Of a stretch of 64,000 nucleotides of DNA, positions 22,233 to 37,065 are shown one piece after another. The stretch's first letter is position 1, and the number at the start of each line of letters is the position of its first letter. Source of the DNA: Irineochytrium annulatum. Taxonomy: Eukaryota; Chytridiomycota; Chytridiomycetes; Chytridiales; Chytridiaceae. Location of the stretch: positions 186,001 to 250,000 of the forward strand of contig JADGJL010000003.1 of assembly GCA_027600665.1 (NCBI GenBank). The letters are read 5' to 3'. The translations under genes and the position numbers were made by a program. A model generated the notes under the pieces. That model saw only the letters and a program-made list of their open reading frames with translations, was not told where the DNA came from and did not search any database.

Positions 22233-22258
22233 ACAGGGAGTGAACATCCTGGAAAATC

Positions 22259-22298
22259 AAAAGAGGACAGCCGCGATTGTGCGGGCTGTCCTCTTTAC
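22259..22298. terminator. Bidirectional terminator between mneS and the SH3-like gene
   Basis: AAAGAGGACAGCC and GGCTGTCCTCTTT are exact inverted repeats with an 11-base loop and A/T runs outside, between convergent genes. Confidence 0.92.
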
Positions 22299-22323
22299 TT
22301 ATCGTTAGAACGATTATACGATG

Positions 22324-22833
22324 TTACTGGATGGCAACGTGGATCCACGCTTTGCCTTTCCAAGTGTACACTTGCACCCACTCGCCACCGTCGAATCCGT
22401 CAACCACTTCACCTGTTGTATCGATGACTTGGGAGCTCAATGCACCGATTGGTTTACCGTTAGGTGCATCATAGAACCAAGTGCGCTCCAGAAGGTTCAG
22501 CAACATTGTAGGTGCCAGAACTTCATCGCCTGGTTTTACAAGTGGCTCTTCAAACATTTTATCATCTGTAGTTGTAGCTGGAGTTTCAGTTGTTGTCGAA
22601 GTACCTGTTGCACCTGTAGTGTCTGTTGTTGTACCGGTTACTGTCTCAGCAGTACCTTCTACGGTGTCTACAGCAGGTTTGTTCACTTCAACAGCCGGAG
22701 TTGTTGTCGTTGTTGTAGCTTCTGTTCCATATTCGGGAGTCACCGTTCCGGTAACCGCTTCCTCAGCACCAGCAGCGGCAGCCATCGAACCCATCAACGT
22801 TAAAGCAGCGGCAAAACTTACGATTTTTTTCAT
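22324..22833 (-). CDS. Secreted Thr-rich protein with SH3-like C-terminal domain
   Basis: 169 residues. A clear signal peptide (MKKIVSFAAALTLMGSMAAAAGA) is followed by a Thr/Val/Glu-rich low-complexity linker (about residues 25-95). A compact C-terminal domain of about 65 residues has repeated aromatic strands (RTWFYDAPNGKPIGALS, then GEWVQVYTWKGKAWIH), resembling bacterial SH3b wall-binding modules. The ATG at 22833 has GAGGAGG nine bases upstream; the longer frame to 22911 does not. The product is probably exported and may attach to the wall. It is not a recognised enzyme. Confidence 0.75.
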   Translation of the reverse strand: MKKIVSFAAALTLMGSMAAAAGAEEAVTGTVTPEYGTEATTTTTTPAVEVNKPAVDTVEGTAETVTGTTTDTTGATGTSTTTETPATTTDDKMFEEPLVKPGDEVLAPTMLLNLLERTWFYDAPNGKPIGALSSQVIDTTGEVVDGFDGGEWVQVYTWKGKAWIHVAIQ

Positions 22834-22913
22834 TTGTTTTTCCTCCTCGGTTAGGTATGTAATTTGTTGTCCTGTGTTAAAAGTAACCAAGCGAGCTACC
22901 TTATGAATCACAA

Positions 22914-22922
22914 ATTATAACA
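22914..22922 (-). promoter_or_regulatory. Extended -10 promoter of the SH3-like gene
   Basis: On the minus strand TGTTATAAT matches an extended -10 element about 80 bases before the start. A TTGACA further upstream is 24 bases from it, too far for normal spacing. The rest of 22923-23127 shows nothing else I can name. Confidence 0.45.
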
Positions 22923-23127
22923 ATATTTTCTTGCATTCTCCAGTGTCAACTGGCGCATATGTGGGTATATAGCAAGCCTGTAAATATCATACTTCGGTGG
23001 GATAAAACCGGGTTGGCTATCTCAAATAAGTCCTAATTTTATGGAATTCATGGGAGTGCAGTTTGGAATAAAGCAGGAGGGAGTGCAATACATAATATAG
23101 AAAAGTTGACCTATGCCTAAAAAACGC

Positions 23128-23166
23128 ACAAAAGCCAATCGGCTTGGTAGCACGATCGGCTTTTGT
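23128..23166 (-). terminator. Terminator of the DUF1328 gene
   Basis: ACAAAAGCC and GGCTTTTGT form a perfect outer stem, extended inward by ATCG/CGAT after one mismatch. It lies 40 bases beyond the stop of the small minus-strand gene. Confidence 0.75.
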
Positions 23167-23206
23167 ATGTATTCGTTAATATGACTCAGTCCAATTAGAG
23201 CTGAGT

Positions 23207-23371
23207 TTATCGCATTCGGCTGCGTCCCGTAATGAGGGAGATGACGAACAGTACAACAAAGATGAAGAAGAGTACTTTCGCGATTGAAGCAGCTGCTTCA
23301 ACAATACCGAAGAATCCAAAAATACCTGCGACCAGTGCAATAATTAGAAATAATACAGACCATTTCAACAT
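23207..23371 (-). CDS. DUF1328/YtjA family small membrane protein
   Basis: 54 residues, read as MLKWSVLFLIIALVAGIFGF and onward to LITGRSRMR. The GFFGI segment, two hydrophobic helices and the short basic C-terminus identify the DUF1328 (UPF0391, YtjA) family. These proteins are small, membrane-embedded and commonly stress-induced; no biochemical role is established. GAAAGG lies about 10 bases before the ATG. A SigB-type promoter site is found 72 bases upstream, which makes it a probable member of the general-stress regulon encoded in this window. Confidence 0.88.
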   Translation of the reverse strand: MLKWSVLFLIIALVAGIFGFFGIVEAAASIAKVLFFIFVVLFVISLITGRSRMR

Positions 23372-23442
23372 AAGGTTTCATCCTTTCGTTACTTGATTGT
23401 GGAGTGAGTTGTGTTCACCTCACCGCCCTGTGTAGTCTAACT

Positions 23443-23468
23443 TTAACCGAGGGCTATCCAGTTGAAAC
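23443..23468 (-). promoter_or_regulatory. SigB-type promoter for the DUF1328 gene
   Basis: On the minus strand GTTTCA (23463-23468) and GGTTAA (23443-23448) are separated by exactly 14 bases. This matches the form of sites before rsbV, yflT and ytxG and the general SigB consensus GTTT-N14-GGGTAT. Confidence 0.7.
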
Positions 23469-23517
23469 ATTGGTTTTTTTTCCAAGCGTGAGCATATTTG
23501 AAGTAACATGAAATTTT

Positions 23518-23543
23518 GTTTCGTCCGGGAAAACGCCGGGTAA
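23518..23543 (+). promoter_or_regulatory. SigB-type promoter for ytxG
   Basis: GTTTCG (23518-23523), a 14-base spacer and GGGTAA (23538-23543), 48 bases before the ytxG start. It lies back to back with the DUF1328 promoter. Confidence 0.72.
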
Positions 23544-23590
23544 CTATAGCAATAACAAACTGATGCACATATGGAAAGTGAGGTTCTTCT

Positions 23591-24100
23591 ATGATCTATC
23601 AAATTAGCGTGGCCCTGATTGCAGTGGCATTTGCAGTCCTTGTTTTCTTTTTAATTCGTACCTTGAAATCCGCTCAGGGTTCCTTGGACAATGTCTCACA
23701 GACATTGCAGGAGGTACAGAAGACCATTGATGAACTTAGTTATGAAGTGAAGCAAACGGTAAGACACGCCAATGATATTACGGTGGATGTCCAGCACAAA
23801 ATGAAAAAAATTGATCCTGTGATGGAATCTGTTGAGAATCTTGGTGAAGTGTTGAATGAAGTGACGGCGGCAGCCAAACAAGTCTCCACGACGCTGATGG
23901 CCAGATTTCAGACGAAACGAAACCATGCCGAAGATAAAACGCACGCTGAACCGTCTCATGTAACGGCACCACCTGCTACATCAACGGATCGTACCTTGCA
24001 ATCCTATGAAGCTACATATAATGGTGATGCTAAGGGCGGGAAGAACTGGATGAAGTATGTCGATGTTGCCGCGAATGTATGGCAACGAATGCGTAAATAA
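23591..24100 (+). CDS. ytxG: DUF948 general stress protein (YtxG-like)
   Basis: 169 residues. One N-terminal membrane helix (about residues 3-23) is followed by a long helical, probably coiled-coil segment (SLDNVSQTLQEVQKTIDELS to TAAAKQVS) and a Thr/His-rich tail. This is the layout of the DUF948 family, whose B. subtilis member YtxG is a SigB-dependent stress protein. A SigB-type promoter sits directly upstream. YtxG and YtxH are neighbours in B. subtilis; here a YtxH-like gene lies 12 kb away beside the sigB cluster. Confidence 0.82.
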   Translation: MIYQISVALIAVAFAVLVFFLIRTLKSAQGSLDNVSQTLQEVQKTIDELSYEVKQTVRHANDITVDVQHKMKKIDPVMESVENLGEVLNEVTAAAKQVSTTLMARFQTKRNHAEDKTHAEPSHVTAPPATSTDRTLQSYEATYNGDAKGGKNWMKYVDVAANVWQRMRK

Positions 24101-24168
24101 CATGATCGCTTTGTAATCCATGAAGAAACCTTCAGAGCGGTGATGAACCTGATGAAAGGGTGAGAATC

Positions 24169-24702
24169 ATGATGAAACTACTGCTTGTGATGTTTAGCGT
24201 AATTTCTCCCTTTTCCGTTCAACCGGCAGCGGTACCCGCTGCTCACGATATGCAATGGACGGCAATGGAGGAGAAGGCGTCAGAGGTAACTCTGGCTGTT
24301 GATCGATCCGAGACTTTCCAGCATTTTCGGACTCTGAATGGCATTTCTTTGGATGACACCATAGATGACTTGTCGGCCAAGAAGGGCCAGGCGGTGTATA
24401 AACAGGAAGATCCTTATCTGGGATGTCCTGAATATCACTTTCGGGATGTGAAGGTTGGTTTGTGTGAAGATACAGATGTCATTCAATATGTGCATATCGA
24501 TGCATCTGAAGATCACATCATGTTAAACGGAGAGAGGATCGAGATGAAGATTGAAGCGATCCATCATGCTCTTGGGAAACCATACTATGTGGCCGAGGAC
24601 GGAGAAGTATTTCTCCGTGGAGATCAGGCGCTAAAGGTATATATGAAGTCAGGCTCTAGCCAGATTGATGGCATTGATCTTTTTGATGATACCGTATCCT
24701 GA
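24169..24702 (+). CDS. Hypothetical secreted protein
   Basis: 177 residues beginning with a hydrophobic export signal (MMKLLLVMFSVISPFSVQPAA). The mature part is acidic, with a two-Cys region (YLGCPEYHFRDVKVGLCEDTD) that could form a disulfide. The pattern GISLDDTIDDLSAKKG, then YHFRDVKVGL and ALKVYMKSG, suggests a small beta-rich fold, but I recognise no family. Its ATG is eight bases after AAAGGG; the GTG at 24160 overlaps that site. It follows ytxG by 68 bases with no terminator, so read-through from the stress promoter is possible. Confidence 0.65.
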   Translation: MMKLLLVMFSVISPFSVQPAAVPAAHDMQWTAMEEKASEVTLAVDRSETFQHFRTLNGISLDDTIDDLSAKKGQAVYKQEDPYLGCPEYHFRDVKVGLCEDTDVIQYVHIDASEDHIMLNGERIEMKIEAIHHALGKPYYVAEDGEVFLRGDQALKVYMKSGSSQIDGIDLFDDTVS

Positions 24703-24721
24703 TATTGGTTAATACGAAATC

Positions 24722-24747
24722 GTTTCAATTCCAAATTGTATGGTTAT
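24722..24747 (+). promoter_or_regulatory. SigB-type promoter for yflT
   Basis: GTTTCA (24722-24727), a 14-base spacer and GGTTAT (24742-24747), 49 bases before the yflT start. Confidence 0.75.
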
Positions 24748-24796
24748 ATACTAAGTAGCTCGATACAGAAGATTAAATCAGAGGAGAGTGGAAACG

Positions 24797-25141
24797 ATGA
24801 ATTCAACCAATGAGCAAGCTTATGCAAAAGTGGTAGAAAACGGAGTCCAAGCGGTAGAAGCGGTGAAAGAATTGCAGATTACCGGATACCTTGCTGATCA
24901 TATCTTTGTTCTCGCCCATGAGAAGGATCGTACAGATCGAATTGCCGATACAGCAGATGCCAAAGAAATTGGCATAAAGGAAGAAGGCGTATTTGATTCC
25001 ATGGCGAATCTGTTCCGCTCACGCGGTGATGAACTCCGGGCCAAAATTGTTTCGATGGGCTTTACTGAAGCCGAAGCTGACTTTTACGAGAGTGAGTTGG
25101 ACAAAGGTAAAGTACTCGTCATTGCTAAAAAGAAAGATTGA
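24797..25141 (+). CDS. yflT: General stress protein 17M-like (YflT domain)
   Basis: 114 residues of the heat-induced stress protein YflT family. Typical features are the opening KVVENGVQAVEAVKELQITGY, the hydrophobic strand HIFVLAHEKDRTDRI, a central FDSMANLFRSRGDELRAKI and the terminal GKVLVIAKK strand. B. subtilis YflT (GsiB regulon, protein 17M) is controlled by SigB. The ATG at 24797 is preferred to the upstream GTG because GAGGAG lies nine bases before it. A good SigB-type promoter precedes it. A 24-bp perfect hairpin ends the unit. The molecular function is unknown. Confidence 0.85.
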   Translation: MNSTNEQAYAKVVENGVQAVEAVKELQITGYLADHIFVLAHEKDRTDRIADTADAKEIGIKEEGVFDSMANLFRSRGDELRAKIVSMGFTEAEADFYESELDKGKVLVIAKKKD

Positions 25142-25214
25142 TCCATATAGCGGTACAAGTTGAAGTTTGCTGAACATGGACAAACTTCTGAATCACTTAG
25201 GTAAAATGCTTAAT

Positions 25215-25266
25215 CAAAAACATAGATAAGGAATGGGGCTTTCCCCATTCCTTATCTATGTTTTTG
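25215..25266 (+). terminator. Exceptionally long perfect hairpin terminator
   Basis: Two 24-base arms (25215-25238 and 25243-25266) are exactly complementary around a 4-base loop, with an A-run at the 5' foot and a T-run at the 3' foot. It can stop transcription from either side and insulates yflT from the rsb cluster. Confidence 0.88.
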
Positions 25267-25491
25267 CAAGTTTGGAAGCGGGATCAGGACGCTGCAAAAA
25301 CAGGGCGAAAAGCGGTGAAGATTACCCGTGATGGTGCCATTTACTGATAGAGTTTTTTTGTTTTTACGATTATAGTTATACTAGGAATTATTATGTCTAC
25401 TGCCGTTTTGTATGAAAAATTTGTATAATTAACGTTCGTTTTTACCTAATAAGAATCGACAAACCCGGACGCCACAGATAAGGAGATATCA
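25267..25491 (+). other. Unexplained leader region before the rsb cluster
   Basis: This stretch has no ORF. A G-rich half (about 25270-25350) with several short self-complementary words is followed by T-rich DNA holding TATACT (near 25376) and TATAAT (near 25424) as candidate -10 boxes, neither with a convincing -35. I see no SigB-type site here and could not match the G-rich part to a riboswitch class. Confidence 0.4.
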
Positions 25492-26661
25492 ATGAGAATA
25501 CTTATTGTTGACGACAATCCGACGAATGTCATTATCATTCGAGAAATTCTGAAAAAAGAGAACTATCGTGACATTGTAACGGCGAGTTCCGCCATGGAAA
25601 TGTTCGAAGTGTTGGGAATTGGGGAGGAAAGCAACGAACTTCGTCCAAGACCGTCGGATATTGACCTGATTTTGCTAGATATGATGATGCCCGAGATGGA
25701 CGGTATCGAAGCCTGCAGTATTGTGCAAAAATTTGAAAATTTGAAGGATATACCGATTATTATGGTGACTGCCATCGGAGACTCCAAGAAACTTGCCGAA
25801 GCATTGGATGCAGGTGCATCTGACTATGTGACCAAACCGATTAATAAAGTCGAACTGATGGCCAGAATTCGACTCGCACTTCGTTTGAAACAGGAGAAGG
25901 ATTGGCATAAAGAGCGAGATCAACGTATTCAGGATGAACTCAAGTTGGCAGCAATGGTTCAAAATGCTGTATTAAGTCCGGCAATCAGGGACCCGTTGTT
26001 CCAAGTGCATGCCATCTATAAACCTTCTTTTGAGCTTGCAGGTGACCTGTATTCATGGTATCCGCTTGGGGAAGGGCGTTATGGTGTATTGTTGCTCGAC
26101 ATGATGGGACATGGGATATCTTCATCCCTGTTTACGATGTTTATCGCTTCTGTCTTGAAAGATACAGTGACCACCTACGTCGATCCAGAGAAGGTTATTC
26201 AGGAGTTGAACCGTCGCTTCAATCAGCTCCATTTAGGGAAACAATTGGTACAGTACTATTTCACCGCAATTTACCTGGTTGTGGATACACGGATGAAGCG
26301 TATTGATTATGTCAACGCAGGACATCCGCCTGCATTATTCTTCCAAGATGACGGCAGTGTCACTACTTTTGACAGCGTCTGCTGTCCTGTTGGTTTATTT
26401 GACAAAATGGATATTGAGCCACAAACGATCCATTATCAGGGCGATGGACATATTGCGCTTTATACAGATGGCTTATTGGAAACTGTTCAGGGTGGGCAGG
26501 AGGAACAACATGAATTCCTGGTCGAAAAACTGAGCGGTTCACATCAATGGAATGAAGATGCCATACAGGCACTGTTTTTTGACGACGAGATATCACAGGA
26601 ACGTGATGATGACAAGTGTCTGGTCTGGATTACGCTGGAAAAAGGAGCGGATACTGAATGA
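25492..26661 (+). CDS. rsbY: Receiver-PP2C phosphatase (RsbY/RsbU-like SigB activator)
   Basis: 389 residues. A receiver domain (1-125) has phospho-acceptor D63 (LILLDMMMPEMDG) and a Lys-Pro near 118 (VTKPINK). A linker (about 130-155) leads to a PP2C-type phosphatase domain with metal-binding AGDLYSW, LLDMMGHG and ALYTDGLLE motifs. In the partner-switch pathway such enzymes dephosphorylate the STAS antagonist RsbV and so free the sigma factor. This layout equals B. cereus RsbY, which is activated by phosphorylation from RsbK. The stop overlaps the kinase start as ATGA, so the two are co-translated. GGAG lies before the ATG. Confidence 0.9.
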   Translation: MRILIVDDNPTNVIIIREILKKENYRDIVTASSAMEMFEVLGIGEESNELRPRPSDIDLILLDMMMPEMDGIEACSIVQKFENLKDIPIIMVTAIGDSKKLAEALDAGASDYVTKPINKVELMARIRLALRLKQEKDWHKERDQRIQDELKLAAMVQNAVLSPAIRDPLFQVHAIYKPSFELAGDLYSWYPLGEGRYGVLLLDMMGHGISSSLFTMFIASVLKDTVTTYVDPEKVIQELNRRFNQLHLGKQLVQYYFTAIYLVVDTRMKRIDYVNAGHPPALFFQDDGSVTTFDSVCCPVGLFDKMDIEPQTIHYQGDGHIALYTDGLLETVQGGQEEQHEFLVEKLSGSHQWNEDAIQALFFDDEISQERDDDKCLVWITLEKGADTE

Positions 26662-29600
26662 AGATCAGAAATAAACTGCTGGTTGGATTTACCGCTCTGA
26701 TGGCTATTTTGATCGTGCTCACGTTTGTGAGTTATGAACGGCTAAACAGCAGTAATCAACAGATTGATCAGATGTATCAGGAACGTTATCTCAAAGTACG
26801 GTTCACTTCAGCAGCGCGCGGAGAGGTTAATGACATTGCTAAAGTGCTGGCTAACTTGTTGTTGAATCCCAAAAATTCGACTGCTGCTGCGGACGGTGAC
26901 CTGAAAGACATGAAAGATCGGGGGGATGGTTACCTCGCAGAGGTAAGAAACCGTGCGGACAGTGCACCTGAACATCAGTTGGTGGATCGTGTGAATACTG
27001 CATGGGGCGCGTATACAGACTATGCCACGAGACAGATTAGCCTGATGTCTCAAGGAAGGGCAGAAGATGCAAATAACTACCGCAATTCAACAGGGCTCGC
27101 GGTGCAGAAAGAAGCCGTAGATAGTTTGAATGCCCTCTCCCGATACCAGGATCAAGAGATTGATGCCGAGATCAAGAGCGCTAACGCTGCCTATACAAGA
27201 GCGGTGCAGATTACGATAAGCATCATGATTGCGGGATTGTTGCTTGCTCTGGGAGTGATCATGTGGGTACTGCCAAGCATCACTCGAGGTTTGAATACGG
27301 TATCCATGATGATTACCAGTTTCGGTAAAGGTCGTTACCGTACCATTCGGCGTATTCAGGTCAAATCCACTGATGAAATTGGTCAGATCGCCAGTGTTTT
27401 CAAAGATGTGTCCAGTGATCTGGAAGAAAAACTGGAAGTCGAGAAGGCTTACGTACAGGCTCAGCAGGATCAAAACTGGATGAACTCCAACATCGCAAGA
27501 GTTCCTGAGCTACTTCGTGGAATTGGCTCCATTCGTCAAATCTCACAAATGTTTATCAGCGAGTTCACACCGGTCCTTGGTGCTCAATTGGGGGTCGTCT
27601 ATCTGATTGATGAGGAGAAACATCCCGACGAATTGAGACGTTACGGTGCATATGCATTCGAAGAGAACGAAGACGTTGGAAAGGAAATGTACCGAATCGG
27701 TGAAGGCCTGATTGGTCAGGCCGCACTGGATATGACGCCTATTATTCTGGAGAATACGCCAGAGGATTATGTGCATATTGGATCAGCTTCAGGTTCAACA
27801 CGTGCTGCAGGTATCATGATCTATCCTGTCGTGTTTGAAGATGAACTGATTGGTGTTGTTGAACTGGCTTCCTTTGAAGGGTTCAATGAACAGCATAGAC
27901 AATTGTTTGCCCAACTGATCATGAACTTGGGTGTTATTTTGAACAACGTTCGTCGTCGTTTACGTGTTGAGGAACTGCTTCGTGAATCCCAGGCACTTAC
28001 AGAGGAACTACAAGTTCAATCGGAAGAACTGCAGACACAACAGGAAGAACTGCGTCGCTCCAATGAGAATCTGGAGGAGCAGACAGAAGCACTTAAACGC
28101 TCGGAGGAATTGTTGCAGCGTCAGCAAGAAGAACTGGAGCATTACAACACGGAGCTTATTGCCAAAACGCGGGCACTTGAAGAGCAGGTACGTGAAGTTG
28201 AAGAGAAAAATGACGAAATTGAGAAAACGAAGACACAGTTGGAACAACAAGCTACGCAACTGTCGATGACAAGCAAGTATAAGTCCGAATTTTTGGCGAA
28301 TATGTCACATGAACTTCGTACACCACTGAATAGTCTGCTCATTTTGTCTCAGCTATTGTCGGAGAACAAGGGTGGAAACCTGACTGATAAACAGCAGGAA
28401 TATGCCCAAACCATCTACATGTCGGGTGCGGATCTGCTGAAGATGATTGATGAGATTCTGGACCTGTCCAAAGTGGATGCTGGTAAGATGGATATCAATT
28501 ATGAGACGGTTCGAATGGAAGAGCTGACCAGCTTTGTTCAGCAAAACTTTGGACCGATGGCAAATAAAAAAGAGCTGAACTTGAACATCGAATTCGACAG
28601 CGACTTACCGGAATGGGTGTACACAGACAGTCATCGTGTCAAACAGATTTTGCGGAACTTGTTATCGAACGCATTTAAGTTTACCAATCGTGGTTCGGTT
28701 AGTCTGATTGGACGACGGATGAAACCGGAAGAACTCCCGGGATATATGAACACCAATCAGGAATATCTCGGATTCAGTGTGAAAGATACGGGCATTGGCA
28801 TTCCTTCGGACAAGACGGATCTGATCTTTGAAGCATTCCAGCAGGTAGATGGGACCACAAGTCGCAAATACGGTGGAACTGGCCTGGGATTGTCCATTAG
28901 CAGGGAGCTGGCACGTTTGCTTGGTGGCGCAATACAGGTGGAATCTTCCGAAGGCGAGGGTAGCTGCTTTACCTTGTACCTGCCGGATAATCATGAAGAG
29001 GAAGCACTGGTGGAGGAAGGGGCTTCAAAAGAAGCAGCTGTATCCTCAGAGGAGCTTTATGAACAATCCTTCGAAACACGGACCATGCTCTCAAGTCATC
29101 AGTCCATCCCATCTCCTGATCCAGAGCGAAGCGTGGGTACAGATCTGTCTCCTAGCCATACTCCGGATGTCACGCAGATCGAAGATGATCGGGAGAATCT
29201 CATGGAAGGTGACAAAATCCTTCTTATCATTGAGGATGATGTGAACTTTGCACATATTTTGATGGATATGGCGAGAGGAAGAGGATTCAAAGCACTTGTT
29301 GCCCTTCAAGGGGATAAAGGTCTGGACATGGCCCGTCAGTATCTGCCGGATGCCATCATCCTTGATATTCAACTGCCTGTTATGGACGGTTGGACCATTC
29401 TGGGTGAACTGAAGAGCAGTTCGGCAACACGTCACATCCCGGTACATGTCATCTCAGTCATTGATGATATGAAGCAAGGTTTGATGATGGGCGCCATTGC
29501 GTATCTGAAAAAACCTTCAAGCAAGGATTCACTGGATAAGGCTTTCTCGCATATCAAATCCTATACCGAGAATCAGTTGAAACGACTGTTGATTGTGGAA

Positions 29601-30383
29601 GATGATGAAATTCAGCGTAAAGCCATTATTGAATTGATTGGTCATGACGATGTTGCAATTACGGCAGTATCCACAGGTAGCGAGGCATTGAATGAATTAC
29701 ACAGCCAGCGTTATGACTGCATGGTACTGGATCTGATGTTAACGGATATGACCGGTTTTGAGTTGCTCGACCAGATTCGGGATGATGAATATCTGAACGA
29801 TCTGCCGATTATAATTTATACAGGCAAAGAACTGGATTCCAAGGAAGAAATGAAGCTGCGCAAATATGCGGAATCCATCATTATCAAGGATGTGAAGTCA
29901 CCGGAACGTCTGCTGGACGAAACCACATTGTTCCTGCACCGGGTAGAAGCCAATCTGCCGGAAGACAAGCGTCGCATCTTGCAGAAGTTACACAACAAGG
30001 AAACGTTGTTTGAAGGCAAAAAGATATTGCTTGTAGATGACGATATCCGTAATGTATTTGCTCTTTCAAGTGTCCTTGAAGGCTATCGAATGGATGTAAC
30101 ATTTGCAGAAAATGGCCGTGAGGCTCTGGAGATTTTAGAGAAAAATCCGGAATTTGATCTGGTACTGATGGATATGATGATGCCAGAAATGGACGGTTAT
30201 GAAGCGATGACACGAATCAGACAGATCCCGCAGTTTGAAAAGTTGCCTATTATTGCGCTCACGGCGAAAGCCATGAAAGAGGATCGCGGCAAATGTATTG
30301 AGGCCGGAGCATCTGATTATGTGAAAAAACCGATCCAGACAGATCAATTGTTATCCTTAATGCGCGTATGGCTGTATTCGTAA
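26658..30383 (+). CDS. rsbK: Giant hybrid histidine kinase with three receivers (RsbK-like)
   Basis: 1,241 residues. A membrane helix, a CHASE3-type extracytoplasmic sensor (about 30-180), a second helix (about 185-205) and HAMP lead into a GAF domain (about 290-430). A long Gln/Glu-rich coiled coil (about 435-535) precedes HisKA with H551 (NMSHELRTP) and an HATPase (GTGLGLSISREL). Three receivers follow with acceptors D903 (ILDIQLPVMDG), D1025 (VLDLMLTDMTG) and D1172 (LMDMMMPEMDG). The middle one lacks the usual Lys-Pro pair (IIIKDV). CHASE3-HAMP-GAF-kinase-receiver and the adjacent rsbY and rsbM genes match B. cereus RsbK, though three receivers is elaborate. Confidence 0.88.
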   Translation: MKIRNKLLVGFTALMAILIVLTFVSYERLNSSNQQIDQMYQERYLKVRFTSAARGEVNDIAKVLANLLLNPKNSTAAADGDLKDMKDRGDGYLAEVRNRADSAPEHQLVDRVNTAWGAYTDYATRQISLMSQGRAEDANNYRNSTGLAVQKEAVDSLNALSRYQDQEIDAEIKSANAAYTRAVQITISIMIAGLLLALGVIMWVLPSITRGLNTVSMMITSFGKGRYRTIRRIQVKSTDEIGQIASVFKDVSSDLEEKLEVEKAYVQAQQDQNWMNSNIARVPELLRGIGSIRQISQMFISEFTPVLGAQLGVVYLIDEEKHPDELRRYGAYAFEENEDVGKEMYRIGEGLIGQAALDMTPIILENTPEDYVHIGSASGSTRAAGIMIYPVVFEDELIGVVELASFEGFNEQHRQLFAQLIMNLGVILNNVRRRLRVEELLRESQALTEELQVQSEELQTQQEELRRSNENLEEQTEALKRSEELLQRQQEELEHYNTELIAKTRALEEQVREVEEKNDEIEKTKTQLEQQATQLSMTSKYKSEFLANMSHELRTPLNSLLILSQLLSENKGGNLTDKQQEYAQTIYMSGADLLKMIDEILDLSKVDAGKMDINYETVRMEELTSFVQQNFGPMANKKELNLNIEFDSDLPEWVYTDSHRVKQILRNLLSNAFKFTNRGSVSLIGRRMKPEELPGYMNTNQEYLGFSVKDTGIGIPSDKTDLIFEAFQQVDGTTSRKYGGTGLGLSISRELARLLGGAIQVESSEGEGSCFTLYLPDNHEEEALVEEGASKEAAVSSEELYEQSFETRTMLSSHQSIPSPDPERSVGTDLSPSHTPDVTQIEDDRENLMEGDKILLIIEDDVNFAHILMDMARGRGFKALVALQGDKGLDMARQYLPDAIILDIQLPVMDGWTILGELKSSSATRHIPVHVISVIDDMKQGLMMGAIAYLKKPSSKDSLDKAFSHIKSYTENQLKRLLIVEDDEIQRKAIIELIGHDDVAITAVSTGSEALNELHSQRYDCMVLDLMLTDMTGFELLDQIRDDEYLNDLPIIIYTGKELDSKEEMKLRKYAESIIIKDVKSPERLLDETTLFLHRVEANLPEDKRRILQKLHNKETLFEGKKILLVDDDIRNVFALSSVLEGYRMDVTFAENGREALEILEKNPEFDLVLMDMMMPEMDGYEAMTRIRQIPQFEKLPIIALTAKAMKEDRGKCIEAGASDYVKKPIQTDQLLSLMRVWLYS

Positions 30384-30469
30384 GTTCATTATTCGTATGT
30401 TCATTGTTTGGGTAATGAAAGACAATACGACGAATACGCAAGTAACAAATGAAGAAGTGGAGAGAATTT

Positions 30470-31342
30470 ATGACACCGTGGGAACCTACCGAGACGGGGG
30501 CAGATTTGGTCCGTATGCCGCAAGATGAAGAGCGCGAGCTGATCGAGATTGAGTTGCTGTTGGAAGGCATGCACCGTTTATATGGATATGATTTTAGAAA
30601 CTATGCACTGCCGTCCCTGAAACGAAGAATCTGGCATCATGCACATGCTGAAGGTGTTAAGAGCATATCCGGCTTGCAGGAGCGCGTTCTTCATGACCGT
30701 TCCGCATTTGACCGTTTTGTACAGAACTTATCCATCCCTGTAACGGAAATGTTTCGAGATCCTTCGCTTTTCCGAATGTTTCGGGAAAAGATTATTCCTA
30801 TCCTGAGAACCTACCCGTATATCCGAATATGGCATGCGGGTTGCTCTACCGGAGAGGAAGTCTATTCCATGGCCATCATGTTGCATGAGGAAGGACTGTA
30901 TGACAAGGCGAGAATCTACGCAACGGATATGAATGACCGCTCTCTGCAACAGGCCAAAGAAGGCGTATACGGTATTGAGAAGATGAAACTATTTACTACA
31001 AATTATTTGGAGGCAGGGGGTACCAGAGCCTTCTCCGAGTACTATACAGCGAAATACAATTCGGTGATATTTCATCCTTTTTTAAGGAAGAACATCATTT
31101 TCGCCGAGCATAATCTGGCAACAGACCGGTCATTTAACGAGTTTAATGTTATCTTTTGCCGAAATGTCATGATTTATTTTAATGATGAACTGCGGAACCA
31201 TGTGCATGGGCTGTTTCATGAGAGCTTGAGCCACTTTGGTATTCTGGTTCTAGGGTCGAAAGAATCGATACATTTTACAGAGTTCAGTGATACCTATGAG
31301 CCGTTAGACCGGACCGAAAAAATATACCGGAAGATCAAATAG
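30470..31342 (+). CDS. rsbM: CheR-type methyltransferase (RsbM-like)
   Basis: 290 residues. The N-terminal helical domain (about 20-90) and SAM-binding domain are those of Che[14 protein letters not shown], the SAM motif [24 protein letters not shown], and [11 protein letters not shown]. No chemotaxis receptor is near. In B. cereus the equivalent protein RsbM methylates the kinase RsbK and restrains SigB activity, and its gene lies beside rsbK as here. The long hydrophilic helices of the RsbK-like protein would be the natural substrate. The ATG at 30470 is chosen for GGAG seven bases upstream; the ATG at 30449 lacks such a site. Confidence 0.87.
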
Positions 31343-31358
31343 GGGGTTAGGGTTAGCC

Positions 31359-33035
31359 ATGGGGCTCAATGAACCAATCCACATATTATTGGTAGATGAC
31401 CGCCCTGAGAACTTGCTTGCTCTTGAAGCAGTTCTGGAATCGGAACAATATAAACTCGTTAAGGCAACTTCTGGAGAAGAGGCACTCCGCTGTCTGCTAA
31501 AAGACGAATTTGCGGTTATCGTTCTCGATGTGCAGATGCCTGGAATGGACGGAATTGAGACAGCAAAATTAATTAAGGCACGGGACAAGTCCAAGGATGT
31601 GCCGATTATATTCATCTCTGCGAATAGCAGAGAAGCGGAGCATTTGTTTGCCGGATATTCAGCCGGGGCTATTGATTACATGGTTAAACCATTTATTCCT
31701 CAGATTTTGAAATCCAAAATCGAGGGATTTGTGGAGATGTTTATCACCAATAAACGACTGAAGACTCAGACGATGCTGCTTCACCAGAAGACACAGGAAT
31801 TGGAGAAGATGAATCAACAACTCATTCAGGCCAAGGAAGAAGCGGAGATTGCAGCGAATGCCAAGACCGAATTCCTGGCGATGATGAGCCATGAGATTCG
31901 TACCCCGATGAACGGTGTCATCGGTATGGTGGATCTGCTGATGGAGACGGAACTGAAGGACGATCAGAAAGAATACGCAGACATCGTTCGTCGCAGTGCG
32001 GATGCACTCGTCACGGTCATCAACGACATTCTCGACTTCACCAAAATGGAATCCGGCAAAATGGAACTGGAAGAGCATCCTTTTGAAATCGTCTCCTGTA
32101 TCCGTGAAGTGCTGGGATTATTCGCTGCTGAAACAGGCAAAAAGAATCTGGAACTGGATTATTTCCTGGAAGATTCTGTTCCTGAATTAATTTACGGAGA
32201 CATGGCGAGGTTGCGTCAGGTTCTGTTGAATCTTATTGCCAATGCGATTAAATTTACTGATCACGGTGGAGTGTATCTGATCGTGTCTGTTAAGGAAGAA
32301 AAGGATGGACACCTGGCATTGGAGTTTGCTGTTAAAGACACCGGGATAGGTATCGCTTCAGACAAAGTTGACCGCCTGTTTCAGCCGTTTTCCCAGCTGG
32401 ATACATCAATGACACGTAAATACGGTGGAACTGGCTTGGGATTGGCAATCTGCAAGACTCTGGTTGAAATGATGGGTGGACAGATCTATCTGGATACAAC
32501 AGAGCAACGGGGAGCGACGTTTGTATTTACCATTCAGGCAAAACGCTATGTCGAAACTGAACTGGTCCAGAGGAGTGGGGAAGAGAATCTAACGGATGTA
32601 AAGAATGAGAATAAATATCCAACGGTATTAATTGTGGATGATCATCCGATTAATCAGAAGTTGATGTCGATTATGCTCGGTAAACTTGGGTTGCTCTCAG
32701 ACATTGCTGAAGATGGGCAGAGTGCACTCGATATGGTGAAGGGTAGCCCGTCTCCCTATGACTATGTGTTCATGGATCTGCAGATGCCTGTTATGGATGG
32801 TTTGGAATGTACACGGCGGATTCGAGAAAGCCTGCCCCCGTCCGATCAGCCGGTCATTATAGCTATGACTGCGAACGTGATGGAAGGTATTCAGCAACGC
32901 TGTATGGCTGCAGGTATGGATGATTATATTAGTAAACCAGTCAAAATGGGCAATGTAAAACAGAAAATATCCCAGTTTCAGAAACAACGACAAAGGCTAA
33001 ATTCAGGCCCTTCTGCTATGAATCAGGCCAATTGA
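31359..33035 (+). CDS. Second hybrid kinase: receiver-HisKA-HATPase-receiver
   Basis: 558 residues, no membrane segment. An N-terminal receiver (D57, [19 protein letters not shown]) is joined by a coiled-coil helix (about 130-165) to HisKA with H178 (MMSHEIRTP). An HATPase ([25 protein letters not shown]) and a C-terminal receiver (D473, [19 protein letters not shown]) follow. It starts 16 bases after the methyltransferase gene and precedes rsbV by 86 bases, so it is inside the stress cluster. It is not a component of the described B. cereus pathway. It may relay phosphate between the RsbK-like kinase and RsbY or bring in a second cytosolic signal. Confidence 0.88.
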
Positions 33036-33057
33036 AACAATTTCCAAACTCCTTTTT

Positions 33058-33084
33058 GTTTCACTCGTGCTGAAGTTGGGTTAT
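33058..33084 (+). promoter_or_regulatory. Autoregulatory SigB-type promoter of rsbV-rsbW-sigB
   Basis: GTTTCA (33058-33063) is followed after 15 bases by GGTTAT (33079-33084), or after 14 by GGGTTA. It lies 38 bases before rsbV. The same position holds the SigB promoter in the B. subtilis operon, giving positive autoregulation. Confidence 0.72.
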
Positions 33085-33121
33085 TAGGTAAGGAAACCAT
33101 TGATCAGGAGAGAGATGTCTA

Positions 33122-33460
33122 ATGAATACAAACAAAAATGAAAAATTCAATGCAAGAACTGAAACACAGGACGGCGTGTGCACGGTGTATCTGACTGGCG
33201 AACTGGATTTGTCGGTTGCTCCTGACTTCCGCTTGGTGATGGAGCCGCTGGTGGATAACAAGGAACAGGATCTCGTGATCAACATGAAAGAACTGAAGTA
33301 TATCGATAGTACAGGGATTGGTATCCTGTTATCTGTTTTGAAGGCAAGACATGGAATGGAAGCTCGCTTCGAAGTACAGGAAGTTCCTGCGCAAATTCAG
33401 AAACTTTTTGACATGACGGGCATCGCCAAATTCTTTGTCACTCAGAAGAATTCCCAATAG
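33122..33460 (+). CDS. rsbV: Anti-sigma factor antagonist (RsbV-like STAS protein)
   Basis: 112 residues forming one STAS domain. The phosphorylation segment reads YIDSTGIGILL, with S63 as the expected serine targeted by the RsbW kinase. LTGELDLSVAPDF is the usual beta-strand 2 region. Unphosphorylated RsbV binds RsbW and releases the sigma factor. rsbW follows after 18 bases and sigB overlaps rsbW, so the three form one operon. GGAGAG lies about ten bases before the ATG. The distinction from SpoIIAA rests on context: no spoIIAB/sigF gene features and a stress-gene neighbourhood. Confidence 0.9.
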   Translation: MNTNKNEKFNARTETQDGVCTVYLTGELDLSVAPDFRLVMEPLVDNKEQDLVINMKELKYIDSTGIGILLSVLKARHGMEARFEVQEVPAQIQKLFDMTGIAKFFVTQKNSQ

Positions 33461-33478
33461 GAAAGGATCGAAAAAGGA

Positions 33479-33931
33479 ATGAATGCAGAAGTTCAAAGAG
33501 TCACCCTTAATTTACCGGCGACAGCTGATTACGTTGATATTGTTAGACTCAATCTCTATGGAGTAGCATCAAAAATGGGATTTTCTTATGAAGACATTGA
33601 GGATATGAAAGTTGCTGTATCCGAGGCCTGTAACAACTCTGTACTGTATGCCTACTCACACGAAGGCGGCATGGTTGAAGTTGTATTCGAAGTGGATGGC
33701 GATACATTGTCCATTACTGTCAAGGACGAAGGTGCAAGCTTCGAGAACATGAACCCTGCTGTGTCACGTGCTGGTCTTCACGACAAAGAATTGACAGAAG
33801 CACAGATTGGCGGACTCGGGTTCTACCTGATGCAAGCCTTGATGGACGATGTCAGTGTGGAAAGTGAGACGGGCAAAGGTACGAAAGTAGTACTCGTAAA
33901 ACGTCTTGCAAGAAGTGAGGAGAAAGTATGA
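33479..33931 (+). CDS. rsbW: Anti-sigma factor / serine kinase (RsbW-like)
   Basis: 150 residues of the GHKL-ATPase anti-sigma family. The N box reads VAVSEACNNSVLYAY, the G1 box VKDEGASFE and the G2 region IGGLGFYLMQALMDDV. Such proteins sequester the sigma factor and phosphorylate their STAS antagonist on serine. The length equals that of B. subtilis RsbW (about 160). Its TGA overlaps the sigma factor ATG (ATGA), so stoichiometry of inhibitor and sigma factor is translationally tied. Confidence 0.9.
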   Translation: MNAEVQRVTLNLPATADYVDIVRLNLYGVASKMGFSYEDIEDMKVAVSEACNNSVLYAYSHEGGMVEVVFEVDGDTLSITVKDEGASFENMNPAVSRAGLHDKELTEAQIGGLGFYLMQALMDDVSVESETGKGTKVVLVKRLARSEEKV

Positions 33932-34701
33932 ATGAAAAAGTGACTCCCCCAGAGTCCATGTCTGAAGCTATTGGTTTGATCTGGGAATACCAGCAGACCC
34001 AAGATAATGAAATTGCAACAGTTCTCATCCGTAAATATGAACCGATGGTTAAGATGGCAGCAGGTAAAATTGCTCGGAATCGCCCCGATCTATACGAAGA
34101 TCTGTATCAGACCGGGCAGATGGCCTTGATTCGTTTGCTTAAGCAATACGATATCAACCTGGGTATTCCGTTTGAACCATATGCCATGAAAAGCATGATT
34201 GGTCATATGAAGAACTATTTGCGAGACAAATCCTGGTATATTCAGGTGCCCCGGAGAATTAAGGAAAAGGGAGCACTTGTGCAACATGCCATTGATGAGT
34301 TAACCGTGAAGCTGGAGCGCTCACCCGGTGTGAACGAAATTGCTGAATACCTTGATTTGACTGCAGAAGAGACGATTGAAGTTCTGGCTGGTCGGGAATG
34401 TTATCACTATGTGTCACTGGATTCTCCTCTATCTCAGGATGACAGTGCAGCAACATTAGGTGAACTGATCAGTGCGGATGTTAATGACTATGATTCGGTC
34501 GAAAAACGGATGGACTTGCAACAGGCATTGGGACAATTGAAGGAACAAGAGCAGCAGGTACTTATTCTAGCCTTTCAGGATGGCCAATCTCAGCGGGCAA
34601 TTGCCCAGAAGCTTGGTGTTTCACAGATGAGCGTATCTCGTATTCAGAAGCGAGCTACAGAGAAATTGAAACAGATCATGTCTAATGCTTCAATGTTATG
34701 A
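33928..34701 (+). CDS. sigB: SigB/F/G-family sigma factor (SigB-like)
   Basis: 257 residues of the group 3 sigma-70 family. Region 2 is visible in LYEDLYQTGQMALIRLLKQYD, region 3 in PRRIKEKGALVQHAIDELT and region 4 in QRAIAQKLGVSQMSVSRIQK. It directs RNA polymerase to general-stress promoters. Downstream of rsbVW, preceded by a SigB-type site and near several stress genes with matching promoters, it is best called SigB rather than SigF or SigG. A terminator follows within 80 bases. Confidence 0.88.
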   Translation: MNEKVTPPESMSEAIGLIWEYQQTQDNEIATVLIRKYEPMVKMAAGKIARNRPDLYEDLYQTGQMALIRLLKQYDINLGIPFEPYAMKSMIGHMKNYLRDKSWYIQVPRRIKEKGALVQHAIDELTVKLERSPGVNEIAEYLDLTAEETIEVLAGRECYHYVSLDSPLSQDDSAATLGELISADVNDYDSVEKRMDLQQALGQLKEQEQQVLILAFQDGQSQRAIAQKLGVSQMSVSRIQKRATEKLKQIMSNASML

Positions 34702-34738
34702 AAAATGGAACCCTAATGTTGTTGAGTACGGCATAAAT

Positions 34739-34778
34739 AAGGACACGTCATTGCACTGGAATGCATACGTGTCCTTTT
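34739..34778 (+). terminator. Terminator of the sigB operon
   Basis: AAGGACACGT pairs with ACGTGTCCTT, with an inner TTGCA/TGCAT pairing and a 3' T-run. Confidence 0.88.
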
Positions 34779-34834
34779 TGGGATCAAAAAAGATAAGTAT
34801 GCAATGAACGAACATAAGTGCAGGAGTGGATAAA

Positions 34835-35866
34835 GTGATTGTGAACCAAATCAAGTTGGAAAGTCGCCGTGACAAGTTATCTTGTTCGGACCATTGGCAA
34901 TGGTGGGATTGGGTTGCACCCGACAACAACAGTATGAACGATGCATTGGAGGAACTGACAGAGGCATTTCCGGACATGCAGTATTGGCTTCACAAAATTC
35001 CGGAAGTGGAATCGAATTATTTGTCCGTCCGTTTTGTGAACGGTACAGAGCCAGTCATATTTGGTTCCTTGTTATATGCGATCAAGAATGAGAGAGATGA
35101 CCAACGTCAAGATAATCAGATGTTTTTCTACGTCGATCGCAATCATCTGGTTACTTTGAATATGGATGACAATACACGAGGGATTATGAAGACGGATGAA
35201 CGTGCTCATATGTTACAGCAATGTAGCGAGGCCAGGGATGGGATGTTTGTACTTTTTCGAGCTATACTGCATTACTACCATGTGGGAATGGATCATTTTG
35301 AGATGAACCTGCGTGATCTGGAACGGAAGATGGAATCCCGCAATGCTCGCACCTTGATGGACCAGATTCTCGCCGCTCGATTTGAATTATTGTATTGGAG
35401 TAATCTGTTCATCCCTTACTCGGAACTGATGGCCGCTTCACATGAGGCTTACCTTGATGAAATCAATGAAAATCGATACTTCCAACAGCTCCAACATCGC
35501 GTAGAGCGAATGGAACGATTGTTTAGACACTACGAGAAAGAGATCGATACATTAATCTCTATTGATAATGCGATCTCCGGTGTGCGTGGGAATGAGATCA
35601 TGAAAACACTGACCATTGTCACCGCTGTGTTCATACCCGCCACGGCTGCCGGCGCGATATGGGGAATGAACTTTGAGAACCTGCCCTTTATCGATAAATC
35701 ATGGGGAGTTGTTCTGGTCCTTGTTGCCATTATCCTAAGCATGATTGGCATGTACGTATGGCTGATGATGAAAGGATGGACAGGGGATCTGCTCAAAGTG
35801 AAATCCTCACAGCCTTCAGCTGAAGAGATTGAGAAAAAAGGAGAAACGGAAAAACGTAAGGGATAG
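34835..35866 (+). CDS. CorA-like magnesium transporter family protein
   Basis: 343 residues. A long cytoplasmic helical domain ends in two C-terminal membrane helices. The first is followed by the GMN signature of CorA channels (AGAIWGMNFENLPF), and the second is VVLVLVAIILSMIGMYVWLM. It probably forms a pentameric divalent-cation channel. The C-terminal tail is charged and Lys/Glu-rich. The GTG at 34835 lies eight bases after AGGAG; the GTG at 34826 overlaps that site. It follows the sigB terminator and shows no SigB-type promoter, so its link to the stress cluster is positional only. Confidence 0.85.
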   Translation: MIVNQIKLESRRDKLSCSDHWQWWDWVAPDNNSMNDALEELTEAFPDMQYWLHKIPEVESNYLSVRFVNGTEPVIFGSLLYAIKNERDDQRQDNQMFFYVDRNHLVTLNMDDNTRGIMKTDERAHMLQQCSEARDGMFVLFRAILHYYHVGMDHFEMNLRDLERKMESRNARTLMDQILAARFELLYWSNLFIPYSELMAASHEAYLDEINENRYFQQLQHRVERMERLFRHYEKEIDTLISIDNAISGVRGNEIMKTLTIVTAVFIPATAAGAIWGMNFENLPFIDKSWGVVLVLVAIILSMIGMYVWLMMKGWTGDLLKVKSSQPSAEEIEKKGETEKRKG

Positions 35867-35886
35867 CTTGCGGTCGGTTAGTCTCC

Positions 35887-36252
35887 TTATTTCTTGTAAT
35901 CTTCAATATAGCCAAGCAAGTCAGCAATATATTGACCGACAATCGGCATATTGACGAATTGGCTGAGAATGAATGCGAGCAGACCCAGAACAACAAAGGT
36001 ACCTACGGTCAGACCGAGCCCTCGTGCCATACCTGCTGTGAAGTTGGTAATAATCCGCTTTTTGGGACTACTGTAATTCTCAATAATATCTTTGATCTGT
36101 GCTCTCTCCAGACTGTCCGCAATCTGGTCCAGACGTGTGTTCAATCGCTTTACCTCGTGTCGCAATTCAAAAGGATGATCGCTTGTATCGTACTGCTGTG
36201 CCGGTGTTCCCCCCGTAATTGGAGTATTACCGTTAATTGTAACTTTACTCAT
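35887..36252 (-). CDS. DUF5665-like membrane protein
   Basis: 121 residues. A helical N-terminal half (FELRHEVKRLNTRLDQIADSL) is followed by a basic hinge (SSPKKRIITNF), a Gly-rich segment (GMARGLGLTVG) and a membrane helix (about 82-105). This resembles the DUF5665 family of small Firmicute membrane proteins; no function is known. GAGGGGG lies before the ATG. It is the last of three minus-strand genes with a hairpin between it and the YtxH-like gene, so its expression may depend on read-through. Confidence 0.7.
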   Translation of the reverse strand: MSKVTINGNTPITGGTPAQQYDTSDHPFELRHEVKRLNTRLDQIADSLERAQIKDIIENYSSPKKRIITNFTAGMARGLGLTVGTFVVLGLLAFILSQFVNMPIVGQYIADLLGYIEDYKK

Positions 36253-36283
36253 AATTATTCCCCCTCAACTCGCATTGGATAAA

Positions 36284-36316
36284 AAATAGCCAGCTGGAGT
36301 GCAGCTGGCTATTGGT
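36284..36316 (-). terminator. Terminator after the YtxH-like gene
   Basis: On the minus strand AATAGCCAGCTG pairs with CAGCTGGCTATT around CACTC-type loop bases and is followed by TTTT. It lies only 31 bases before the next start codon, so it may act as an attenuating terminator. Confidence 0.85.
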
Positions 36317-36334
36317 CACTCGATCTATATCGCC

Positions 36335-36742
36335 TTACAGGCTAGTCGAGTTAAGTTCTTTACGTGCATCTTCCTTCGCTTCTACGGAAGCGGCAGCCAC
36401 TTCTTCAGATGCACGGGATGCTTCGTTAGCCACATCCGCGGATGCTTTTCTCACAGATTCCATGACATCATTGCGTCCTTGGTTTACTGTTTTTGCAATG
36501 TCGGAAGTTTTGGATGAGACCGTTTTAGCCAGTTCGGATGCTCTATCACCTACAACCGTTGCAACTTCTTTCGTGCGGTCAGTAACCATGCCTACTTTCT
36601 CGGAAAGGTCACCACGCAATTCTCGTCCTGGTTTAGGCGCAAAGAGTAGGGCCGCAGCCGCTCCCAGCAAACCTCCGATGAAAATCCCTTTGGCGAAAGT
36701 CGAACCCGTCTGTACAGGATATTGCTCTTCTGCTTTATTCAT
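36335..36742 (-). CDS. YtxH-domain general stress protein
   Basis: 135 residues. The Gly-rich membrane helix GIFIGGLLGAAAALLFAPKPG is the hallmark of the YtxH/GvpQ-like domain. A long amphipathic helical tail rich in Ala, Val, Ser and Glu follows (TKEVATVVGDRASELAK and similar 11-residue-like patterns, as in LEA proteins). B. subtilis YtxH is a SigB-dependent stress protein. AAGGAG lies ten bases before the ATG. It is 65 bases downstream of the GlsB-like gene, whose promoter is SigB-type, so co-transcription is likely. Confidence 0.85.
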   Translation of the reverse strand: MNKAEEQYPVQTGSTFAKGIFIGGLLGAAAALLFAPKPGRELRGDLSEKVGMVTDRTKEVATVVGDRASELAKTVSSKTSDIAKTVNQGRNDVMESVRKASADVANEASRASEEVAAASVEAKEDARKELNSTSL

Positions 36743-36807
36743 GTCTAATCACTCCTTCTTCAAATGTAAGAAACAAATACGAAACAACGAACACCTTGTT
36801 GCCCGAA

Positions 36808-37065
36808 TCAGGCAGCCTGTCTTAGCAGTCTGGACACAAGCCCCAGCAAGAAAACAAAGAGCGCTGTACCAATGATGGCAGGGATGATGGCAAAGTTACC
36901 GATAACGGGTCCCCAGTTACCAAGCAAAAGTGCTCCCAGCCAGGCTCCGGCAAATCCGGCAATCATTGCACCGATTATGCCTCCAGGCATGTTGTGACCG
37001 GCAAGTGCATCTCCGATCAAACCGATGATGACAGCCATCACAATGCTGATAATGATGCCCCACAT
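36808..37065 (-). CDS. GlsB/YeaQ/YmgE-family stress membrane protein
   Basis: 85 residues with three hydrophobic Gly-rich helices: IISIVMAVIIGLIGDALAG, GIIGAMIAGFAGAWLGALLLG, and NFAIIPAIIGTALFVFLLGL. This is the transglycosylase-associated (GlsB) family, widely stress-induced and without a proven activity. AAAGGAGG lies before the ATG. A SigB-type promoter with a 14-base spacer stands 63 bases upstream. It opens a run of three minus-strand genes (GlsB, YtxH, DUF5665) placed against the sigB operon. Confidence 0.87.
   Translation of the reverse strand: MWGIIISIVMAVIIGLIGDALAGHNMPGGIIGAMIAGFAGAWLGALLLGNWGPVIGNFAIIPAIIGTALFVFLLGLVSRLLRQAA

Follow-up and report, generated by a model that had tools for sequence, protein, structure and literature searches.

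We analysed a 64,000-nucleotide stretch of DNA (the window; positions 186,001 to 250,000 of contig JADGJL010000003.1, assembly GCA_027600665.1) that is a Paenibacillus contig and that carries a seven-gene RsbKMY/SigB cluster with a second hybrid kinase, here called Rec-HK, between rsbM and rsbV. Based on comparative sequence analysis, we propose (with a probability of about 0.6) that the two kinases form a two-tier cascade in series, in which RsbK would activate Rec-HK and Rec-HK would phosphorylate RsbY, rather than two parallel inputs. Since relatives that lost the sensor kept Rec-HK, this kinase is probably the middle link between sensor and switch, and not a spare input. The losses in one RsbY clade, a natural fusion, and the pattern in the other RsbY clade together make the Rec-HK core the most likely donor of RsbY, with RsbK acting upstream through the Rec-HK receiver.

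Organization of the cluster

All seven open reading frames listed in a preliminary description of this DNA were confirmed in place and order on the forward strand, with ATGA overlaps at rsbY/rsbK and rsbW/sigB and intergenic gaps of 16-86 bp elsewhere. Pfam matches assigned a receiver (REC) and a PP2C (SpoIIE) phosphatase domain to RsbY (25492..26661), and to RsbK (26658..30383) a 4HB_MCP sensor, a sub-threshold HAMP, GAF, a long signalling helix, a HisKA/HATPase core, and three receivers. RsbM (30449..31342) is a CheR-type methyltransferase (CheR_N and CheR). Rec-HK (31359..33035) consists of REC1, a continuous helix of 82 residues seen in a predicted model, a DHp/CA core, and REC2, with Pfam borders at residues 9-121 for REC1, 168-233 for HisKA, and 280-394 for HATPase, followed by REC2. 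RsbV (33122..33460; Pfam and NCBIfam) is a STAS anti-anti-sigma factor, RsbW (33479..33931) is an anti-sigma kinase with a HATPase_c_2 domain that scored above the cut-off of NCBIfam PRK04069, and SigB (33928..34701; Pfam, NCBIfam, and tree) contains sigma regions 2-4. With a hybrid kinase, a CheR methyltransferase, a receiver-PP2C protein, and rsbV-rsbW-sigB all present, this is an RsbKMY/SigB module of the Bacillus cereus type. Profile searches of each protein (receiver-PP2C, kinase, CheR, STAS, anti-sigma kinase, and sigma domains) and the gene order thus bore out the cluster with an internal second kinase. For RsbK, the GAF domain, the kinase, and the three receivers stood, whereas the CHASE3 domain named earlier was absent from the Pfam matches (the sensor is 4HB_MCP_1) and HAMP was sub-threshold in the window (Pfam E 0.09), although above the cut-off in a relative (L149).

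The sigma factor did not group with SigF or SigG. Its best NCBIfam equivalog was Sigma_B at 201.8 bits (below that model's cut-off of 315), versus 133.0 for SigF and 101.7 for SigG, and in a 38-row tree it joined the SigB proteins of other clusters, the remaining sigma factors of five genomes being set off by a branch with support of only 82/75 and a long-branch warning. It was 100% identical (rounded) to SigB of Paenibacillus sp. OVF10 and of strain ISL-58. The window is part of a 250,121-bp bacterial contig in a mixed or eukaryote-type assembly (26.9 Mb, 1082 contigs).

Two RsbY clades and natural losses of rsbK

An RsbY tree of 56 rows, made of the window, 18 of 80 loci found through SigB, and 37 further fetched loci with an intact RsbY, split into clades A and B with support of 99/92. 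Clade B (37 rows including the window) held both kinases in 28 rows, only Rec-HK in 4, and a fused kinase in 5, so that a Rec-HK-type core was found in 37/37; these rows are not independent and represent about four events. Clade A (19 rows) held only RsbK in 10 rows, both kinases in 8, and in one locus (L152) a frameshifted rsbK. The RsbK core was present in 18/19 rows, and Rec-HK was absent from 10/19 loci, an absence that covers about 20 kb around rsbM. A Rec-HK-type core is thus never missing from clade B, where RsbK sometimes is, and clade A shows the reverse. L152 was considered as an rsbK loss and rejected, as its rsbK is split by frameshifts. A charge swap in RsbY alpha-1 (REIL versus EKIL, with the in-between forms KEIL, QEML, and REML) tracked the two clades; as it lies beside and not at the named specificity positions, it was rejected as a specificity signal and kept only as a clade marker.

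In three loci (L117 in genome G260, L121 in G288, and L122 in G245), rsbY, rsbM, the Rec-HK gene, rsbV, rsbW, and sigB were present and rsbK was gone. No full-length RsbK was found elsewhere in these three genomes, and the 505-bp gap at the former place of rsbK in L117 gave no significant rsbK match. In L134 (G235) the Rec-HK gene directly followed rsbY, and both rsbK and rsbM were gone; the best rsbM match of that genome was at 7.6e-31, and it was not among the 254 genomes with a match to the RsbK sensor at 1e-20. On the RsbY tree the losses occupied three separate positions (L117; L121/L122; L134), each nested among rows with both kinases. The remaining genes were under purifying selection, with omega of 0.008-0.168 between L121 and L122 (Rec-HK 0.042) and of 0.02-0.152 between L031 and L134.

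Fused sensor kinases

In five loci (L149, L150, and L187-189), rsbY was followed by a 4HB-GAF kinase of 878-921 residues and then by rsbV-rsbW-sigB, with neither rsbM nor Rec-HK in the locus. Custom profiles found no receiver in the five kinases, nor did Pfam in the two scanned (L149 and L188), and none of the five genomes had a Rec-HK match at 1e-120 genome-wide. In a kinase-core tree of 82 rows, which included four of the five fused proteins, their cores fell inside the Rec-HK clade (96/91), where they joined the sigB-linked Rec-HKs (97/91), and away from the RsbK cores. The fused cores showed 60-64% identity with the Rec-HK core of the window and 40-42% with its RsbK core, and in each of the five genomes no protein matched the window core better than the fused one. 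The fusion junction lies in the signalling helix, whose end was Rec-HK-like in the two sequences printed.

Conserved residues and the structure of Rec-HK

In 118/118 aligned RsbY sequences the receiver kept Asp63, Thr93, and Lys115, and the Asp residues of the PP2C domain were kept in 117-118. Among 102 RsbK proteins of 1100-1300 residues, His551 (102/102), REC3 Asp1172 (102), REC2 Asp1025 (101), and REC1 Asp903 (99) were conserved, and the REC1 lysine position held Lys in only 61. REC1 of Rec-HK kept Asp13, Asp14, Asp57, and Lys110 in 119/119 sequences, with Ser (102) or Thr (17) at position 87, and is thus an N-terminal canonical receiver with intact Asp/Thr-Ser/Lys, as in an LvrB-type kinase. 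The Rec-HK core was similarly kept (His178 in 119/119, N-box and G1 box in 117, G2 in 113 with 6 gaps), and the REC2 Asp was found in 94/119 (24 gaps).

An AlphaFold2 model of Rec-HK (mean pLDDT 80.4, pTM 0.43) linked REC1 to DHp by a single helix (residues 114-195), a second LvrB-type feature being that this continuous signalling helix has a heptad-compatible length. The spacing between the REC1 lysine and the phosphoacceptor histidine in 118 loci was 68 residues in 100, 61 in 5, and 200-204 in 8, with 5 unmatched; 61 is one heptad less than 68, and the longest class is read as a PAS insert. In RsbK-type kinases, the helix stretch T[ED]ELQxQSEEL was present in 106/121 with rsbM in the locus versus 0/15 without, these 15 being the fused group and giant kinases, two related groups that are not independent.

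Within the window's tier (130 genomes plus G235, with G257, whose gene is split in L137, counted as having REC2), Rec-HK lacked REC2 in 3/131 genomes (G116, G235, and G260), and G235 and G260 are both of the rsbK-less ones. The association of the two losses (2/2 rsbK-less genomes versus 1/129 others) gave a Fisher value of 3.5e-4 that ignores kinship, the two losses being far apart on the tree.

Conservation within and beyond the order

The loci found through SigB (80 kept of 152) are biased to close SigB, and rsbY-rsbK-rsbM-Rec-HK-rsbV-rsbW-sigB had the same order and strand in 80/80, so the arrangement is not due to chance. In four of these loci (L004, L034, L059, and L083), rsbK, rsbM, or the Rec-HK gene was shortened or split. 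Cluster genes were also split or shortened in L131, L152, L196, and L200, and in all eight loci the cause may be either sequencing error or real decay. One locus (L120) held two SigB-like genes (668-1444 and 5266-6042), each with an rsbW. An even sample of the order gave a CheR match at 1e-30 in at least 281/296 genomes, the weak matches presumably being chemotaxis CheR. Among the listed genomes of the order whose rsbM was 75% or more identical, rsbM was adjoined by Rec-HK in 130/130 and by rsbK in 129/130.

In the Bacilli, an rsbM match at 1e-42 was found in 62/398 genomes, and 20 of the more distant rsbM-matching loci were fetched. Ten of them (L194-202 and L205) had rsbK, rsbM, and a REC-kinase gene, with no rsbY in the locus and with rsbK split in L196 and L200. 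The core of this REC-kinase is unlike that of the window, and by motif in the four sequences printed we take it to be KinA-like; all three of these proteins that were scanned had PAS domains, and REC1 kept an ENAV or ENSV signature in all ten. The other ten (L203, L204, and L206-213) had a one-receiver RsbK, rsbM, and rsbY, with no Rec-HK in a search that covered about 20 kb. Such B. cereus-like loci may represent a reduced relative. Plasmid records were also examined from Alphaproteobacteria, Betaproteobacteria, and Deinococcota (12 in all, four top-listed and eight spread); in ten of them a REC-kinase gene followed the sensor kinase, and two (L238 and L239) had none. By custom profiles, the sensor kinase had three receivers in 11/12 and two in L237. 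CheR lay within the locus in 6/12 and annotated CheB in 3/12, and the ten REC-kinase cores were of HisKA or HWE type (HWE in L234 and L235). REC1 was thus retained while the type of kinase core varied.

Because Rec-HK adjoins rsbM in 130/130 genomes and a REC-kinase follows the sensor in 10/12 plasmid records, the second kinase was not added locally. The earlier idea of a B. cereus-type pathway enlarged in this lineage is not supported, as sensors with several receivers and a Rec-HK partner also occur in Proteobacteria and Deinococcota. The RsbK-Rec-HK pair also persisted without rsbY or sigB in the locus (L123-126 and L129). In ten more loci from the order (L135, L136, and L139-146), Rec-HK adjoined a GAF-HK-REC kinase, which was 1895-1921 residues long in nine loci and 1063 in L135, and rsbM was absent from the locus; the large kinase of L142, the only one of the group scanned, had nine HAMP stretches.

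Putative SigB promoter motif and neighbouring genes

The motif GTTTCA-N13-15-GGKTA occurred three times in the window versus 0.08 expected. One putative SigB promoter, GTTTCA-N15-GGTTA (or GTTTCA-N14-GGGTTA), lies inside the cluster before rsbV (33058..33083, forward strand), and a second (24722..24746, forward) precedes yflT (24788..25141, forward), a gene upstream of the cluster that encodes a YflT-domain (Pfam) stress protein and is present in 78/80 loci. The exact motif was found before rsbV in 65/80 loci (0/1600 shuffles), before yflT in 67/78 (1/1560 shuffles), and before rsbY in only 1/80, and therefore rsbV-rsbW-sigB probably has its own SigB promoter. The motif before rsbV and yflT points to autoregulation of sigB, and the genes upstream of rsbV presumably use another promoter. 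In 16 more distant loci, the motif preceded rsbV in 11 and was missing in L119, L121, L122, L134, and L137. Before rsbY, a B. subtilis-like GTTTAA-N12-15-GGGTAT with at most 2 mismatches was found in 21/80 loci, only slightly better than in shuffles (62/400), and this candidate promoter was set aside.

The third site (GTTTCA-N14-GGTTA, 23444-23468, reverse strand) lies about 72 bp before a gene for a 54-aa DUF1328 membrane protein (23207-23371, reverse), which is likely, from this motif, a further SigB target. Neighbours of the cluster in the window include YflT, YtxH, DUF948, DUF1328, and Transgly_assoc proteins. Rfam gave no match across window positions 22000-37000.

Proposed wiring and its alternatives

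In the wiring that follows, each phosphotransfer with its direction, the sign of control over RsbY, the methylation, and the promoter use are inferred; the parts, their order and conservation, the losses, the fusion, the catalytic residues, and the motif were observed directly. Membrane RsbK would sense stress and would be tuned by RsbM through methylation of its signalling helix. Active RsbK would phosphorylate REC1 of cytosolic Rec-HK at Asp57, and phosphorylated REC1 would remodel the continuous helix and free the kinase core, as in LvrB. The core would autophosphorylate His178 from ATP and pass the phosphoryl group to Asp63 of RsbY, whose PP2C domain would dephosphorylate RsbV~P, so that RsbV would take RsbW and release SigB. 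SigB would then raise rsbV-rsbW-sigB from the promoter that precedes rsbV. Two receivers, REC2 of Rec-HK and REC3 of RsbK, probably inhibit or serve as sinks. Beyond the losses and the fusion, a series arrangement is favoured by the persistence of the RsbK-Rec-HK pair without rsbY or sigB in the locus and in ten of the 12 plasmid records, by the retention of REC1 across changes of kinase core, by the REC2 pattern in the window's tier, and by the LvrA-LvrB-LvrC precedent. The preliminary description spoke of a phosphorelay. No Hpt domain was found in the Pfam matches of ten window proteins, nor in RsbK or Rec-HK at E up to 5, the rest of the genome not having been searched; because the cluster proteins lack Hpt matches, a strict phosphorelay is unlikely and a kinase-to-kinase cascade fits better.

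The preliminary description had both kinases feed RsbY. If so, RsbK would phosphorylate RsbY directly, as in the B. cereus model described in PMC4574943, where RsbK acts on RsbY without Rec-HK, and Rec-HK would be an independent RsbY kinase driven by another kinase through REC1. Losses of rsbK with Rec-HK kept are compatible with two such redundant donors. However, loss in clade B is one-sided, with repeated loss of rsbK and a Rec-HK-type core kept in all 37 rows examined, the fused proteins use a Rec-HK-type core, and the RsbK-Rec-HK pair co-occurs where no RsbY is nearby, and we regard parallel inputs as unlikely. Alternatively, RsbK would be the RsbY kinase, and the main task of Rec-HK would be to reset RsbY (or RsbK) once stress is over, as a phosphatase or phosphate sink. 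Rec-HK does bear two receivers, and the receiver of a hybrid kinase can inhibit, as described for B. cereus RsbK (PMC4574943). This role is nevertheless quite improbable, given that the rsbK-less clusters keep rsbY-rsbVW-sigB at low dN/dS with Rec-HK as their sole kinase, and that the catalytic residues of Rec-HK are kept nearly everywhere. The same wiring could also run with the opposite sign, RsbY~P being the less active phosphatase and the cascade holding SigB down until stress stops it. Such a sign has a precedent in Mycobacterium smegmatis RsfR, a receiver-PP2C protein described as inhibited by RsfS phosphorylation (PMC10950880), whereas published accounts of B. cereus have phosphorylation activate RsbY (PMC7522486, PMC9847131), and we consider it highly improbable here.

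Several observations weigh against the series cascade or narrow its support. rsbM was kept without rsbK in L121 and L122 with an omega of 0.029 (26 synonymous and 3 nonsynonymous differences), which a pure role in RsbK methylation fails to explain; because of this strong purifying selection, RsbM may have a second substrate. The donor of REC1 in the rsbK-less genomes is not known, and RsbK is thus not strictly required. The fused genomes are probably a single event, so that the independent events number about four, and an RsbM-like CheR was found elsewhere in 3/5 of them (G046, G091, and G153; 1e-92 to 1e-99). REC2 was absent from the same open reading frame in 26/119 loci of the wider set, some through split genes; since 20 of these loci had rsbK, the link between REC2 and rsbK is limited to the window's tier. 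Finally, at the HK853-RR468 specificity positions (structure title 4jav), which we mapped by what we take to be their numbering, RsbY was much alike in the two clades, and the comparison does not tell the models apart. At these positions REC1 of Rec-HK (ENAV) resembled REC3 of RsbK (RNAV), and RsbY (TNII) resembled REC2 of Rec-HK (INLM); REC2 rows reading ENAV are REC1 matches in proteins without REC2. This likeness fits a cascade in series but was not counted as support for it, as RsbY of loci with RsbK only (VNVI, INII) also differs from its own RsbK REC3 (RNAA). The kinase/receiver interface positions were nearly invariant within the window's clade, and covariation statistics were therefore not used.

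A broader reading is tentative and rather doubtful: Rec-HK might be a general output adaptor for CheR-methylated multi-receiver sensors across phyla, with REC1 as a constant plug and the core swapped so as to select the output (RsbY-SigB in Paenibacillus, KinA-like in other Bacilli, HWE in Alphaproteobacteria), and RsbM might also methylate the Rec-HK helix and hence be kept where rsbK was lost. RsbK-type multi-receiver kinases without Hpt occur in distant bacteria, and their route to outputs is unclear. The natural deletions and the natural fusion in Paenibacillus offer an ordered, testable answer that places Rec-HK between sensor and RsbY, and suggest that swapping one kinase core may let a sensor module change its output.

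Comparison with known systems

What is new here is the proposed wiring, the module itself being already known. The combination of RsbKY and RsbM has already been published for 2 Paenibacillus genomes (PMC9847131). No description of Rec-HK in a sigB cluster, or of a sensor-CheR-Rec-HK module, was recognised by title or start of abstract among the open-licence matches listed. The B. cereus system shares the membrane hybrid kinase with GAF domain and signalling helix, the orphan CheR methyltransferase, the receiver-PP2C protein RsbY, and the RsbV/RsbW/SigB partner switch (PMC4574943, PMC9847131). It differs in that its RsbK ends in a single receiver (PMC4574943), whereas window RsbK has three and a conserved Rec-HK lies between rsbM and rsbV. 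The window RsbY belongs to another clade than that of the ten B. cereus-like Bacilli loci with RsbK only (none of these was fetched under the name of B. cereus). M. smegmatis RsfS-RsfR/SigF is likewise a two-component system in which a receiver-PP2C phosphatase feeds a partner switch, but in the excerpts of PMC10950880 it has a single kinase without receiver, no RsbM homologue, and inhibition of RsfR by phosphorylation.

The Leptospira LvrA-LvrB-LvrC system is alike in that a hybrid kinase activates a Rec-controlled kinase that acts on a receiver-bearing sigma/anti-sigma regulator: with experimental support, LvrA activates LvrB by phosphorylation of its receiver, and LvrB phosphorylates LvrC, a putative anti-sigma factor (PMC13269768). 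Among 60 PDB matches listed, LvrB (8vc9) matched the Rec-HK profile from receiver to kinase (45-392, E 2.2e-19). Foldseek aligned 8vc9 to the Rec-HK model over about 400 columns (E 2.8e-21), with a TM of 0.26 and an rmsd of 27 A, so the likeness is one of domain order and not of arrangement. The outputs differ, a receiver-anti-sigma factor in Leptospira (as described in PMC13269768) versus a receiver-PP2C protein acting on RsbV in Paenibacillus, and a text search of the LvrB paper (PMC13269768) turned up neither CheR nor RsbK. The Paenibacillus cluster would provide a second sigma/anti-sigma system in which an LvrB-type mechanism may operate, in laboratory-tractable soil bacteria.

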